Shown here piece by piece: positions 39,562-49,443 of a stretch of DNA of 64,000 bases. Made by a program: the position numbers and the translations under genes. The DNA is taken from positions 1-64,000 of the forward strand of contig JAJPIK010000044.1 in NCBI GenBank assembly GCA_021324795.1, given 5' to 3'. The notes beneath the pieces were generated by a model, which saw only the letters and a list, made by a program, of their open reading frames with translations, searched no databases and was not told where the DNA came from. The stretch's first letter is position 1; the number at the start of each line of letters is the position of its first letter. The stretch is from Chloroflexota bacterium. GTDB taxonomy: Bacteria > Chloroflexota > UBA6077 > FW602-bin22 > CADDYW01.

Positions 39562-40692
39562 TCACTTCTTCTTTTGCTCGGCACAAGCAAGCAAGGCGTC
39601 TTCCCAGTCGAGTAACTTACCGTCGGGCCCCGGGTGATCTGTGCGCCACTGGGCAACACGGACGAAGACGTCGGCGGTGCGCTCACCGGGGAACTGTTGG
39701 GTAAGGCGCAGAGCGCGGATCTGGCGAGCCACCGGGCGGTAGACGTCACTTTCCCAGCGTCGGGCGGCTTCCCGAAGGTCGTCAATGCCCTGCTCCGCGG
39801 CGAAGTCGCGGATGAGCTCTTCAAGACGTGGATATTGGCCGGGCAACGCCGCGCCGATTCGGGTGAGGCCAGTGGTGCGCTCGAAAGCGCGGCGCTCGGC
39901 GAAGACGCGCTGGGCTTGTGGATCTCCTAAGGTGACGAACTCGGTCACGAGGGCGTCTATTTCGAGCTGGCCCAAGCGCTTGGCAGCGGCGACCCGATGA
40001 TTACCGTCGAGGACATAATAGCCGTAGCCGAGCTTGTAAAGGACGACCGGGGGCAAGCTGACCCCTTCCTCCATCGCCTTGAGGACTCGCTGGAAGCGCT
40101 GGTCTTCTTCCCGACGCCGGCTGTTGATCCGGAAATTCTCGTCGAGCTCGGCGGCCCGGCCAACGCTGCCGATGATGCGGGCGACTTCGACTGTCCGCAA
40201 GCCCAGGGAACGGGGCGCAACCGGGCCCGCCCGAGCGGCATCCTCGGCGAAGCTACGAACGGCCGGGGGGCGCTCGGCTTCAGCGACGTTTGGTCGGACG
40301 AGGAGCACTGGACAGGGAGCCTTGGCAACGATCTCCTCGGCCACGGATCCGAGAATGATTTTCGACAAGCCGTGGCGAACGTTGCTGCCCAGGACGAGGA
40401 GGTCAACGTTCTGGGCAGCGGCTTCGTGGAGGATCGTTTCGGCGACGGGGCCATAGCGGATGAGCGGACGAGCCTTGATCCCTTCAGTATGTAAGCGCGC
40501 GGTAATGGCATCGAGGTACGCATGAGCCTGGGCCTCGGCGGGAGAAACGCCCTCACTGTTGGAAGGCTGAGATGGCAGGACGTGCAGCAGAATGATCTCG
40601 GCGTCGAAAGCCTTGGCTTGGGCTTCGGCAATCGGAATCTTGGCTTCACTGAGGCGATTCAAATCGAGTGGTACTAGAATGCGATCGATCAT
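39562..40692 (-). CDS. Universal stress protein fused to a ParB-like domain
   Basis: A 376-residue fusion. Residues 1-142 are a UspA domain: MIDRILVPLDLNRLSEAKIP, IILLHVLP, VDLLVLGSNVRHGLSK and IILGSVAEEIVAKAPCPVLL. Residues about 180-260 form a ParB/sulfiredoxin-like module with VLDGNHRVAAAKRLGQLEID (the GNHR motif corresponds to the nucleotide-binding GxxR of the fold). The C-terminal 115 residues are helical. GNHR-type modules bind or hydrolyse nucleotides. ATG 40692 has GGGAGGA upstream; the longer frame to 40806 is not supported. It lies 61 bases after the rhodanese gene on the same strand and may share its transcript. Confidence 0.78.
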   Translation of the reverse strand: MIDRILVPLDLNRLSEAKIPIAEAQAKAFDAEIILLHVLPSQPSNSEGVSPAEAQAHAYLDAITARLHTEGIKARPLIRYGPVAETILHEAAAQNVDLLVLGSNVRHGLSKIILGSVAEEIVAKAPCPVLLVRPNVAEAERPPAVRSFAEDAARAGPVAPRSLGLRTVEVARIIGSVGRAAELDENFRINSRRREEDQRFQRVLKAMEEGVSLPPVVLYKLGYGYYVLDGNHRVAAAKRLGQLEIDALVTEFVTLGDPQAQRVFAERRAFERTTGLTRIGAALPGQYPRLEELIRDFAAEQGIDDLREAARRWESDVYRPVARQIRALRLTQQFPGERTADVFVRVAQWRTDHPGPDGKLLDWEDALLACAEQKKK

Positions 40693-40753: not shown

Positions 40754-41101
40754 TCAAAGGCCGACCGCGATGGGATAGCCGGCTGCTTCCCAGGCCTGGA
40801 GGCCACCGATCAAAGCGGCGCCCTTGAAACCGCGGGCGTTGACGATCTGCGCCGCACGGGCGCTGGAATGTTCCGCCGGTCAGGTTCAGTAGAAGATCAG
40901 TTTCTTATCTGGAGGAAGACGCGAGATTGCCGCGCCGAGCTGACGGATCGGAATTGACCACGCCCCGGGGATGTGACCAGCGGCAAAAAGATCAGTCGGA
41001 CGCACGTCGATCGCGACAGCTTTGCCGCTCTCGAGGAGTTCGTAGGCTTCGACCGGACCGATACGTGGGGCCGGGGCTAGCGAAGGTTTGGCTGCTGCCA
41101 T
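40754..41101 (-). CDS. Rhodanese-like protein with two in-frame UGA codons (candidate selenoprotein)
   Basis: Ignoring two TGA codons (40886-40888 and 40880-40882), the frame encodes 115 residues of a complete single-domain rhodanese: AIDVRPTDLFAAGHIPGAWS, LPPDKKLIFY, then X-T-X, PAEHSSARAAQIVNARGF, LIGGLQAWEAAGYPIAVGL. Rhodaneses of this kind have Cys-Thr-Cys or similar at this active-site loop, so both TGAs fall where cysteine or selenocysteine belongs, and the frame is intact on both sides. A small hairpin (40849-40863) with a loop CGTGC follows at 22-28 bases, as bacterial SECIS elements require. The other reading is a pseudogene with two nonsense mutations. ATG 41101 follows AGGAGGTG. 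Confidence 0.6.
40849..40863 (-). promoter_or_regulatory. Candidate bacterial SECIS hairpin
   Basis: On the minus strand GCGCC and GGCGC pair around the loop CGTGC. The loop begins 28 bases after the first TGA and 22 after the second, inside the 16-37 base window known for bacterial SECIS elements, and has a G in its second position. The five-bp stem is short and is also ordinary coding sequence, so the evidence is modest. Confidence 0.3.
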
Positions 41102-41222
41102 GGCACCTCCTGAATTCGGTGAAACAGGAGAGCGCTGCAAGCTGAATGCCGGAGTGTTAGTACCGGATTATTCGCCGGGAGTGTCAACGGCAGAGTTCCA
41201 GCGGGACCAAAGCGCGTTGCGC

Positions 41223-41271
41223 TTTCCCACCCGTCTGTGCAGGGCGCAGCCCTGCACAGACGGGTGGGAAA
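41223..41271. repeat. Perfect 23-bp inverted repeat between rhodanese and VOC genes
   Basis: Left arm 41223-41245 (beginning TTTCCCACCCGTCTGTGCAG) and right arm 41249-41271 are exact reverse complements around the three-base loop GCA. It lies 12 bases from the end of the minus-strand VOC gene, so it may act as its terminator. It is much longer and more perfect than usual and resembles a palindromic insertion. Confidence 0.85.
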
Positions 41272-41282
41272 TGGCGAGACCT

Positions 41283-41678
41283 TTAGCCTTGCCAGGAAAG
41301 CTGCGTGAGCTGGATCAGGTTGCCGCAGGTGTCGTTCAGCATGGCGATGGTCGAGCCGGTCACCTGGGTTGGCGGCATGGTGAACTCAGCCCCGCGAGCT
41401 TTGATGCGCTCGTAATCGCCCCGGACGTCGTCCGTGTAGAACATCGCGGCCGGCTGGCCCTGCTGGAACAGCGCTTGCTGATAGGCCTTGGCCGTGGGAT
41501 TGTCGTTGAGCGCTAGCTGCAGCTCCGTGCCTTGCGGCTCCTCGGCTGAGGCGACCGTCAGCCAGCGATATGGCCCCTGGCTGAAGTCGGCCTTCTTGAC
41601 GAAGCCTAGGACCTCGGTGTAGAAGTGTAGGGCCTTGTCCTGATCGTCCACGTAGATGCTGGTCAGCTTGATCTTCAT
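41283..41678 (-). CDS. VOC (glyoxalase/bleomycin-resistance) family protein
   Basis: A 131-residue vicinal-oxygen-chelate protein: MKIKLTSIYVDDQDKALHFY, TEVLGFVKKADF, GTELQLALND, AAMFYTDDVRGDYERIKARG and DTCGNLIQLTQ follow the paired beta-alpha-beta-beta-beta plan. Metal-ligand positions are not all clear, so it may be a binding protein rather than a glyoxalase. It is transcribed divergently from an ECF41 sigma-factor gene and has an ECF41-type promoter of its own, so it is a likely regulon member. AGGAGATTC precedes the ATG. Confidence 0.88.
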   Translation of the reverse strand: MKIKLTSIYVDDQDKALHFYTEVLGFVKKADFSQGPYRWLTVASAEEPQGTELQLALNDNPTAKAYQQALFQQGQPAAMFYTDDVRGDYERIKARGAEFTMPPTQVTGSTIAMLNDTCGNLIQLTQLSWQG

Positions 41679-41692
41679 TTGAATCTCCTTTC

Positions 41693-41719
41693 TGTCACAC
41701 GAGCTCTGTCCGGCTCGTC
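41693..41719 (+). promoter_or_regulatory. ECF41-type promoter driving the sigma factor gene
   Basis: TGTCACA (41693-41699), a 16-base spacer and CGTC (41716-41719) match exactly the known ECF41 target promoter TGTCACA-N16-CGTC. It points at the ECF41 gene starting at 41756, so the sigma factor likely activates itself. Confidence 0.7.
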
Positions 41720-41727
41720 AATAGTAT

Positions 41728-41754
41728 GACGGAACAACGCAGGAGAATGTGACC
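41728..41754 (-). promoter_or_regulatory. ECF41-type promoter driving the VOC gene
   Basis: On the minus strand GGTCACA (41754-41748), a 16-base spacer and CGTC (41731-41728) match the ECF41 consensus with one mismatch at the first base. It points at the VOC gene starting at 41678, and its -35 element ends just before the sigma-factor ATG. Confidence 0.6.
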
Positions 41755-41755
41755 G

Positions 41756-42637
41756 ATGGATGGCAAGTGGTTGGCGGAGCAGTTCGAAACGGATCGCACG
41801 CGGCTTCAGGCGGTGGCGTACCGGATGCTGGGCTCGGCCAGCGAGGCCGACGATGCCGTACAGGAAGCCTGGCTGCGGCTCAGCCGGACTGATGCCACGG
41901 AAGTCGAGAACCTCAGCGGCTGGCTGACGACGGTCGTCGCCCGCGTGTGTTTGGACATGCTGCGCTCGCGCAAATGGCGCCGCGAGGAGCCGCTGACTGC
42001 GGAGGGCGAGTTCCTGCCGGACGCGGCCGACCCGGAGCACGAAGCGTTGCTGGCGGAGTCCGTCGGCTCGGCGCTGCTGGTCGTGCTCCAGCGCCTGGCG
42101 CCGGCCGAGCGCGTGGCCTTCGTGCTGCACGACCTGTTCGGCGTGTCGTTCGAAGAGATCGCCGGGATCGTCGGTCGCTCGCCGGTGGCGGCCCGGCAGT
42201 TGGCCAGCCGCGCCCGCCGGCGAGTTCAGGGCGCGGCCGACGACGATCACGTGGCAGATCTGACTCGCCACCAGGCCATCGTCGAGGCGTTCTTCCGGGC
42301 GTCGCGCGGCGGCGACCTTCAGGGGCTCCTCGCCGTGCTTGACCCGGACGTGGTCGTGTACAGCGACAAAGCGCTGGTTCGCATGGCCGCCGCTCGCGGC
42401 GTGGTGCGCGGCATCCGAGAGGTCCGCGGCGCAAAGGCGGTGGCCGGGAAGTTCGCCGGCCTCGCGCAGGCGGCGCAGTTGGCGCTGATCGACGGCGTGC
42501 CCGGGGCAGTGTGGGCGCCGAAAGGCCGCCCGCGCGTCGTGTTTGGCTTCACGATCGAGGACGGCAGGATTACCGGCATCGAGCTGGCGGCCGAGCCGGA
42601 GCGCATCAGCCGGCTGAACATCGAGATTCTCGCGTAG
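41756..42637 (+). CDS. ECF41-family RNA polymerase sigma factor with SnoaL-like C-terminus
   Basis: A 293-residue sigma factor. Region 2 reads FETDRTRLQAVAYRMLGSAS and EADDAVQEAWLRLSR; region 4 reads VLLHDLF-like FVLHDLFGVSFEEIAGIVGR with SPVAARQLASRARRRVQ. After about residue 170 it continues into a SnoaL/NTF2-like domain (FFRASRGGDLQGLLAVLDPDV and IDGVPGAVW, the NGxPG-like motif). This fused C-terminal domain controls activity in ECF41/SigJ proteins in place of a separate anti-sigma factor. AGGAGAATGTGACCG precedes the ATG. The adjacent divergent VOC gene and the two ECF41-type promoters support the assignment. Confidence 0.92.
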   Translation: MDGKWLAEQFETDRTRLQAVAYRMLGSASEADDAVQEAWLRLSRTDATEVENLSGWLTTVVARVCLDMLRSRKWRREEPLTAEGEFLPDAADPEHEALLAESVGSALLVVLQRLAPAERVAFVLHDLFGVSFEEIAGIVGRSPVAARQLASRARRRVQGAADDDHVADLTRHQAIVEAFFRASRGGDLQGLLAVLDPDVVVYSDKALVRMAAARGVVRGIREVRGAKAVAGKFAGLAQAAQLALIDGVPGAVWAPKGRPRVVFGFTIEDGRITGIELAAEPERISRLNIEILA

Positions 42638-42816: not shown

Positions 42817-44640
42817 TTAGGTCGTGCTTTCCGTGGACTCTTCGTAAGCAGCCGAGGTTGCCGCGGCCGCCGCTTCGGTCGGAAGGAGATCCAGCACGCT
42901 GACGGGGGCGTTCTTGTCCGGTAGATCCGGCAGCGCTTCACCTTGGATCTTGCGCCGCTCGACTTCTTCCATGATCCGGTAGAGGTCATCGCCGTTGAGC
43001 TCCAGACGTTGGAGCAAGGTCTCGGCGACGGCGACGACGAGTTCGCGATGCTCGTCGAGCAGATGCTTGACCTTGAGGAATTGCTCGCGGAGCAGTCGGT
43101 CGATCTCTTTCTTCATGCCGCTATCAGGCATGCCTTCGCCGAAGGCGGCTACCGAGTAGAGACTGCCGTTCATCCCGAGATAGCCGATGTAAGCCGCCGC
43201 GGCGCGAGTGGCCTGCTGGAGATCGGAGAATACGCCGCTCAACTTGGTGCCGAGGAAGAGCTCCTCAGAGGCGCGGGCGGCGAGTGCAACCTGGATGTGA
43301 GCGAGCAGCTCGGTGGAGTCAGTCGTGTAGGTTTCTTGGACTGGTTTCGGCATAGCGAAGCCGAGGACGCCCCCTTCGTGGCGAATGATCGTCACCCGAG
43401 TGACCCGCATGCGCTTGTAGAGCTTGAGCATGGCGACGGCGTGACCAGCTTCGTGGTAGGCCAGGGCCCGCTTCTCTTCCATGAGCATATTGCGAATCGG
43501 GTGGCGCAAGCCGACCTCGTGGTTGTCCAAGGCCGTGGTGAAGTCTTCATAGTTGATCTTCTTACGGCCATTGAAGTGGGCGTTGATCACCGCTTCGTTG
43601 ATGATGAACTTGATCGCGGCCGGGCTCTGGCCGATCGTTTCCGATGCCAGACGGTCGAGGTCGAGATCCTCGTGAGCAACCTTTTCCAGGTAATACTTGA
43701 TGATCTCTTTGCGGCCATCGTAGTCTGGATAGTCGACAAAGATCTTGCGATCGAAGCGGCCCGGGCGAAGCAGCGCGGGATCGAGCCCTTGAGCCATATT
43801 GGTCGCGCCCATGGTTAGGACGAGAGGAATCTCGGCCCGGCCGACTTTGAATCCGAGCTTGCGCTTCAGCTTGGCTTTCCAGCTATCGTCGCGGGGCAAA
43901 GGGTCCATTTCGGTAAGAAGCTGGTTAAGGGCACCGCCACCACCTCCAAATAACCCGCCCATCGCTCCCATGCCCGTACCGGCGAGGCCACTACGGGCAC
44001 GACCAATCGCGTCGATTTCGTCGATAAAGAGGATGCAGGCGCCGTATTTGCGGGCAAGTTTCCGTGCTTTGTTGTACAGGCCCCAGATCCGCATCACGTC
44101 CATGCCCCAGAACATGCCTTGGATCGACGGTGCCGAGAGGTAACCGAAGGGTACCCCGGCTTCGGTCGAGATACAATGGCCGAGATACGACTTGCCAGTC
44201 CCTGGGGGCCCCACGAGGAGAATACCTCGTGTGACCTGCCCGCCCATGCTCTTAAATTCCTTGACGCCTTTGAGCAAGGTAACGACCCGGCTCGCCGTCT
44301 CGAGAACTTCGGGATTGCCGCGGTAATCTTTGAAGCCAACACCCGTTTCGCCCGGCAGAATCCAGTACATGCGTGGCCGGCCAAGGAACCAGAACAGCGC
44401 GACAAACTGGACAATCATGAACAGGACGGCAAAGAGGAGCTGGAAGAGCATAAAGGCGCCGTAAAGGATGTACTGAAGCCAGTCGCCGATGTGGGGGGCG
44501 ACGACAAACCAGAGGATCCCGAAAAGAACCGCGATAATGAGAATGGTCTTCCAGCTTCGTCCTAATCGGGCGAAGAACGAGTCGATCGAGCTTTCGATCT
44601 CTTCGACTTGTGGCCGCTGGCTCTGGGTCGCTGTACTCAT
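42817..44640 (-). CDS. FtsH-like membrane AAA+ metalloprotease
   Basis: A 607-residue protein with three N-terminal membrane helices (about residues 28-100), an AAA+ domain with Walker A GPPGTGKS, Walker B ILFIDEIDAIG, Arg-finger region RPGRFDRKIF, and a peptidase domain with the zinc motif HEAGH (ALAYHEAGHAVAML) and the third-ligand Asp in LSGVFSDLQQAT. Unlike canonical FtsH it has a cytoplasm-proximal hydrophobic hairpin rather than a large periplasmic domain, a pore loop reading MFWGM in place of FVGVG, and a Gly-rich insert after IDAIGRARSGLAG. It should extract and degrade membrane or misfolded proteins. ATG 44640 is used. Confidence 0.88.
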   Translation of the reverse strand: MSTATQSQRPQVEEIESSIDSFFARLGRSWKTILIIAVLFGILWFVVAPHIGDWLQYILYGAFMLFQLLFAVLFMIVQFVALFWFLGRPRMYWILPGETGVGFKDYRGNPEVLETASRVVTLLKGVKEFKSMGGQVTRGILLVGPPGTGKSYLGHCISTEAGVPFGYLSAPSIQGMFWGMDVMRIWGLYNKARKLARKYGACILFIDEIDAIGRARSGLAGTGMGAMGGLFGGGGGALNQLLTEMDPLPRDDSWKAKLKRKLGFKVGRAEIPLVLTMGATNMAQGLDPALLRPGRFDRKIFVDYPDYDGRKEIIKYYLEKVAHEDLDLDRLASETIGQSPAAIKFIINEAVINAHFNGRKKINYEDFTTALDNHEVGLRHPIRNMLMEEKRALAYHEAGHAVAMLKLYKRMRVTRVTIIRHEGGVLGFAMPKPVQETYTTDSTELLAHIQVALAARASEELFLGTKLSGVFSDLQQATRAAAAYIGYLGMNGSLYSVAAFGEGMPDSGMKKEIDRLLREQFLKVKHLLDEHRELVVAVAETLLQRLELNGDDLYRIMEEVERRKIQGEALPDLPDKNAPVSVLDLLPTEAAAAATSAAYEESTESTT

Positions 44641-44705
44641 CAATCTACCTCGCTCACACTCTACTCACGGCACGCGCCGGCTTGGCGGTTCTTCACCGGG
44701 AAAGG

Positions 44706-49292: not shown

Positions 49293-49443
49293 ACAAAATC
49301 GCCCCGGCGATTGCAGGGGCGTCTTATCTACCGCTCCCCTTATCTCGCAGATCAACTCTGCCGGAGTTGGCACCATACACTTTGACGCGCTGGTTGCCGG
49401 GCTTCGTCGGGCCGTTTCCCTCTGCCACTCTGGATAAGAGCGC
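49293..49443 (-). promoter_or_regulatory. SAM-I (S-box) riboswitch with terminator
   Basis: The minus strand reads CTCTTATCCAGAGTGGCAGA, GGGAAACGGCCCGACGAAG, CCCGGCAACC, GGTGCCAACTCC and GAGATAAGGGGAGCG: all core SAM-I elements in order. P1 pairs CGCTCTTATC with GATAAGGGGAGCG. Right after the aptamer a hairpin CGCCCC/GGGGCG (49300-49321) and ATTTTGTT form an intrinsic terminator. SAM binding should stop transcription of the thrC-like/NIL/ThiS operon. Confidence 0.93.

Follow-up and report, generated by a model that had tools for sequence, protein, structure and literature searches.

We describe a small rhodanese gene of a Chloroflexota bacterium in which two in-frame UGA codons, separated by a single codon, fall in the active-site loop. 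The gene very probably encodes a functional single-domain selenoprotein, with selenocysteine (Sec) at residues 72 and 74, a single shared SECIS hairpin and an origin from the single-Sec C-x-U form of rhodanese. The original prediction had proposed such a U-x-U selenoprotein from the window (the whole 64,000-nucleotide stretch that was analyzed), and, as far as sequence comparison can tell, the proposal is supported by Sec machinery in the genome, by exchange of Cys and Sec among relatives, by the hairpin and by recurrence of the motif in ten genomes.

Results and Discussion

Gene and reading frame

The gene sits exactly at the coordinates first proposed for it, to which we add the strand (minus). 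The features of the locus are as follows.

40754..41101, minus strand: U-x-U rhodanese gene of 115 codons, with ATG start and TGA stop (from sequence, profile match and orthologues)
41106..41111, minus strand: AGGAGG ribosome binding site, 4 nt 5' of the ATG (from sequence)
40886..40888, minus strand: codon 72, first UGA of the loop (C-x-U and C-x-C relatives have Cys here)
40880..40882, minus strand: codon 74, second UGA of the loop (Sec in the C-x-U form as well as in U-x-U; the C-x-C relatives have Cys)
40849..40863, minus strand: SECIS hairpin core GCGCC-CGUGC-GGCGC (conserved, co-varying 5-bp stem)
39562..40692, minus strand: downstream gene, universal stress protein (Usp) domain followed by a long C-terminal part (also the neighbour in sister genomes)
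42817..44643, minus strand: upstream gene, FtsH-like AAA / M41 peptidase (three sister genomes have the same neighbour)

Between the start ATG at 41101 and the stop TGA at 40756-40754, the rhodanese frame is interrupted only by the two UGAs at codons 72 and 74, and the loop around them reads FY-U-T-U-PAEHSSARAA. With TGA read as a residue the protein is MAAAKPSLAPAPRIGPVEAYELLESGKAVAIDVRPTDLFAAGHIPGAWSIPIRQLGAAISRLPPDKKLIFY-U-T-U-PAEHSSARAAQIVNARGFKGAALIGGLQAWEAAGYPIAVGL, while the standard code gives an 84-aa ORF ending at FY. Membership of the rhodanese family is clear from the PF00581 profile, which matches residues 17-107 with both UGAs inside the match (E=1.6e-15; 57.8 bits vs. a gathering score of 22.2). 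The third TGA (40754-40756) was also considered as a Sec codon and rejected, as the ends of homologues differ there and the sequence beyond is not conserved.

The AAA/M41 protease and Usp neighbours are kept within the family of the genome under study (G000), and no common neighbour of the rhodanese gene was found outside this family. The M41 protease and rhodanese genes are separated here by a glyoxalase gene and by an ECF sigma factor that ends in a SnoaL-like part (41283-42637); in G001-G003 the protease and rhodanese genes are closer together than in the window. Between the rhodanese and glyoxalase genes there is also a long near-perfect inverted repeat at 41224-41271 (TTTCCCACCCGTCTGTGCAGGGC...). 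The C-terminal ~240 residues of the Usp-domain protein (39562-40692) are without a Pfam match and include a ParB-like stretch, YYVLDGNHRVAAAKRLG. Further away, a SAM riboswitch (RF00162, 78.3 bits) is found at 49337-49440 on the minus strand.

Conservation of the U-x-U loop

Searches with tblastn and profiles recovered the U-x-U loop in ten genomes: G000 itself, three of the same family (G001, G002, G003), two of the same order (G004, G012), one of the same class (G019), one of the same phylum (G269), and G400 and G604, which both come from one 291-genome sample. The locus in G400 (L060) belongs to a MAG labelled Armatimonadetes, and the U-x-U genes are drawn from two phylum-level samples. Identity to the window protein was 37-66% in a comparison of nine proteins, the window protein among them. 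TGA stands at both positions in all ten assemblies, which makes a sequencing error an unreasonable explanation, and the argument that two UGAs in the active-site loop are not a product of chance is borne out.

In nucleotide comparisons, most pairs had pN < pS on the 5' as well as the 3' side of the UGAs, in agreement with the earlier view that the open frame is conserved on either side. For G000 and G002, pN was 0.31 vs. pS 0.69 before the UGAs, and 0.07 vs. 0.98 after them; the values after the UGAs come from small samples with pS near saturation, and pairs with the divergent G019 are uninformative there. Judged by its sequence, with the loop in ten genomes and the protein constrained on both sides of the UGAs, the gene appears undamaged.

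C-x-U and C-x-C relatives

Across the phylum we collected 43 distinct sequences of single-Sec C-x-U relatives. One of them is a paralogue in the same genome (L012, contig C67:4787-5107) with the loop FCTUPHEATSARVA and the same hairpin. Cys-only (C-x-C) relatives also exist, with the loops AYCACPND (L240) and VVYCSCPNE (L281), so that the expectation of cysteines in the loop of related rhodaneses holds true, and the nearest relatives are mostly C-x-U selenoproteins. In the alignment of homologues, which had been suggested as a check, Cys and Sec exchange at both UGA positions.

Other rhodanese-like frames with in-frame TGAs were observed. L014 of the same genome (contig C123, 72810-73085) has one such TGA in YCHDYE-U-DMSARAA (C-x4-U), and the sequence 3' of this TGA fails the generic SECIS rule; the C-x4-U spacing recurs in L171, L192, L077 and L068. 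A TGA at only the first loop position is present in L191 (G001), L173 (G020) and L279 (G374), with the loops YUNMQHRG in L191 and YUNMRHRG in L173. L190/L010 of the genome under study has Cys at that first position (YCMMRHRGS), which gives a Sec/Cys pair within another group of rhodaneses.

A conserved hairpin downstream of the UGAs

A short hairpin with G in its loop had been noted at SECIS distance, and it is indeed present. Its 15-nt core begins 16 nt past UGA-74, and the apical loop follows UGA-74 at 21 nt and UGA-72 at 27 nt. Published rules for bacterial SECIS elements call for a loop of 3-9 nt, a stem of 4-16 bp, G in the first two loop positions, a spacing of 16-37 nt and an MFE at or below -7.5 (PMC13188914). 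The window hairpin, with its loop CGUGC and 5-bp upper stem, conforms to these rules for both UGAs. The folding energy is -15.9 kcal/mol for the extended hairpin and -7.9 for the 15-nt core alone (from G002, which has the same core). The generic rule is weak in this GC-rich DNA and was rejected as a stand-alone test, as 36 of 150 random TGAs pass it, and the weight of the argument therefore rests on conservation and covariation of the hairpin.

The arrangement of a 5-bp stem and a 5-nt loop with G at position 2, placed 21 nt past the second UGA, was found in all ten U-x-U genes and in 41 of 43 C-x-U genes; it was absent from both C-x-C relatives checked. In the window, only 2 of 1894 TGA triplets are followed by a 5-bp stem at the family distance with the loop NG[G/T]NN, the form shared by those ten U-x-U and 41 C-x-U genes. 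Among 39 sequences, pairing was retained in 99% of cells and four of the five pairs showed two-sided changes, compared with 0.2 expected from shuffles (0 of 500 shuffles as high). Sliding the pairing partner abolished the covariation signal in the same 39 sequences, and RNAalifold found the same hairpin independently, without prior input. This was further supported by codon usage, as the codons within the hairpin are frozen: Ser AGC in 37/39 (34% elsewhere in these genes), Ala GCC in 35/35 (44%), Arg CGT in 35/38 (34/236, 14%), and Ala GCG at two positions in 33/33 and 34/37 (31% each).

A covariance model of 48 positions picked out two genes in the genome under study, the U-x-U gene at 64.1 bits and the C-x-U paralogue at 57.0 bits, with the next-best match at 16.3 bits (E=0.15); both genes belong to the training alignment, so these scores speak for specificity and not for independent discovery. 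An Rfam search of five loci returned no SECIS family, only sub-threshold microRNA noise.

Selenocysteine machinery

The search for selA, selB, selC and selD called for by the original prediction found all four in the same assembly: tRNA-Sec at 72.9 bits (above the Rfam cut-off), SelB at 352 bits (cut-off 242), SelA at 566 (cut-off 268) and SelD at 387 (cut-off 125). The SelD gene has an in-frame TGA of its own at SHGAG-U-ACK, the usual Sec site of SelD. The assembly is a draft (124 contigs, 93.7% complete, 6% contamination), in which Sec genes on other contigs do not prove co-residence beyond doubt, and this point is addressed by the other genomes. Nine U-x-U genomes were tested, with G604 outside the test, and all nine contain SelA or tRNA-Sec. 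SelA was above cut-off in eight (G000, G001, G002, G003, G004, G012, G019 and G400) and tRNA-Sec in six (G000, G001, G002, G019, G269 and G400). G003, G004 and G012 all have SelA, and in them no tRNA-Sec passed the gathering score. Conversely, SelA was not found in G269 (U-x-U, L165) or in G008 (C-x-U, L177), both of which have a good tRNA-Sec; missing contigs or a divergent SelA may explain this.

Relation to known selenoprotein families

A 2026 catalogue lists 119 prokaryotic selenoprotein families and subfamilies (PMC13188914, Table 1). It confirms that Sec-containing rhodaneses are known, in five forms (UxxS, UxxG, CxU, UxxG and UxxxxU), and it includes some double-Sec families (PMC13188914). 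A U-x-U rhodanese is absent from Table 1 of the catalogue (PMC13188914). A literature search for the U-x-U motif with 'selenoprotein', in open-licence papers, returned only mammalian SELENOP; an earlier mention elsewhere is possible.

The closest known type is the third catalogued form, the C-x-U rhodanese NF041203 (rhodanese_LYCAU), which is the best NCBIfam match and has the same loop and the same second Sec position; the C-x-U genes we studied also have the same SECIS hairpin as the window gene. NF041203 has one Sec, however, whereas the window protein has two, and at 60.7 bits the latter is below the cut-off of 115. Because it reaches neither this cut-off nor the single-Sec motif, we do not file it as NF041203. 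The cut-off is likewise reached by none of 14 U-x-U or C-x-U relatives (54-108 bits, best 107.5). The U-x-U rhodanese is accordingly an unlisted variant of the known, NF041203-like C-x-U rhodanese.

The fifth form, TsoB (NF045694, UxxxxU), is also rhodanese-like with two Sec (PMC13188914), but resembles a rhodanese/DsbD fusion, unlike the single domain of 115 aa with U-x-U described here, which scores 17 bits against the TsoB cut-off of 805. Bacterial precedent for a pair of close UGAs in a single redox or metal-binding protein is given by the UxxU families (Prx-like, and metal-binding NF041115; PMC13188914), which are other families and have their UGAs 9 nt apart instead of 6 nt. GlpE, PspE, YgaP and BH2092 (3nhv) share the fold and active-site region of the window protein, but have Cys instead of Sec and most have a shorter loop; the C-x4-C loop of BH2092 aligns gap-free, with its first Cys under position 72.

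Fold and active-site loop

An AlphaFold2 model built with 30 relatives showed a rhodanese fold (pLDDT 90.3, pTM 0.82), in which residues 72 and 74 lie in the loop between strand 67-71 and helix 78-89. The best PDB matches of the model in Foldseek are the single-domain rhodaneses 3nhv (E 1.6e-9), 3tp9, YgaP and GlpE. The classical rhodanese Cys aligns to position 72 in profile alignments with 3nhv and 3tp9, and to position 74 with the second domains of 6mxv and 1yt8. This conflicting placement arises because the loop is longer here.

Probable repeated origin of the second Sec codon

In a tree of 73 rows and 105 columns, where few columns leave the deep order unresolved, the U-x-U state needs four changes, and at least three of these are forced by well-supported branches. 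G012 (U-x-U) and G008 (C-x-U) are sisters with a support of 100/100, and G269 (U-x-U) lies inside a clade (97/95) whose other members are C-x-U. The simplest reading of these sequences is that U-x-U is a recurrent derivative of the known C-x-U type, through repeated change of TGC/TGT to TGA beside an existing SECIS. Some reversals of U-x-U are possible.

Proposed double Sec insertion from one SECIS

The frame, its conservation, the hairpin and the Sec machinery are computational findings; we infer Sec insertion at both UGAs, the joint use of one SECIS, the direction of evolution and the reaction. In a C-x-U ancestor, a single-base change of TGC/TGT would have created a TGA six nucleotides 5' of the existing Sec codon, and because of this position the old SECIS would have come to serve two UGAs. 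SelB and Sec-tRNA-Sec on the hairpin would decode UGA-72 and then, six nucleotides on, UGA-74; as the core starts 16 nt past UGA-74, the ribosome can decode either codon while the hairpin still lies in front of it. In the active site, one selenol might take a sulfane sulfur or an oxidising equivalent and the other resolve it, via a diselenide intermediate. That one SECIS directs Sec insertion at a pair of UGAs with a spacing of only six nucleotides, that this evolved repeatedly from a single-Sec ancestor and that the active site is capable of forming a diselenide is, as a whole, an account we consider probable.

Recoding of the UGA in E. coli fdhF has an efficiency of 30-40% (PMC4513850), and two independent recodings at this level would leave only about 10-16% full-length product. 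The double UGA would be costly yet is kept, which suggests a benefit, most likely a redox pair (diselenide) in the rhodanese loop that reacts faster or better withstands oxidation. For a redox-active two-centre rhodanese in persulfide or peroxide chemistry under stress we see about an even chance; the remaining share goes to faster ordinary sulfur transfer or something else. One such alternative, a rival on function only, is a double-Sec but classical thiosulfate sulfurtransferase in which Sec speeds the ordinary chemistry and no redox pair is formed. The rhodanese fold and the ordinary single-domain rhodaneses among the best PDB relatives, GlpE and YgaP included, are in favour of it, but the loop exceeds the C-x-x-G-x-R type in length, and its two redox residues, one apart, are each Cys or Sec throughout the family. 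We regard it as a possibility of some substance, if a tentative one.

Insertion of Sec at UGA-74 only is improbable. UGA-72 would then be read by a near-cognate tRNA as Cys, Trp or another residue, or act as a regulated stop with a truncated 71-residue main product. In its favour, the SECIS keeps a constant distance from UGA-74, the codon common to the C-x-U form, and the 27 nt from the first UGA to the loop is above the 21 nt kept throughout the family, although it falls within the published 16-37 nt. Against this reading, a change of TGC/TGT to TGA would bring cost alone, and still all four members of the family retain it; the U-x-U state also changes repeatedly on the tree, and the paralogues L191 and L173 have TGA at the first loop position alone. 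A pseudogene, derived from a C-x-C or C-x-U rhodanese through two nonsense mutations, would account for the frame broken under the standard code, but hardly for an identical pair of TGAs across ten genomes of two phylum-level samples, for pN < pS on both sides of them or for a co-varying hairpin with frozen codons, and is very unlikely. An alternative code, with UGA as a sense codon genome-wide and neither SECIS nor Sec involved, has nothing in its favour beyond the in-frame TGAs and can be dismissed almost entirely, since this gene ends at a TGA with non-conserved sequence after it, the Sec machinery is complete and the hairpin is conserved.

Standard annotation would tend to shorten U-x-U genes or to label them as pseudogenes. 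Natural pairs of the G012/G008 type have a SECIS in common and differ by one Sec codon. U-x-U/C-x-U pairs thereby open the question of how a bacterial SECIS reaches over more than one UGA, and that of the benefit from a second selenium atom in one active site.
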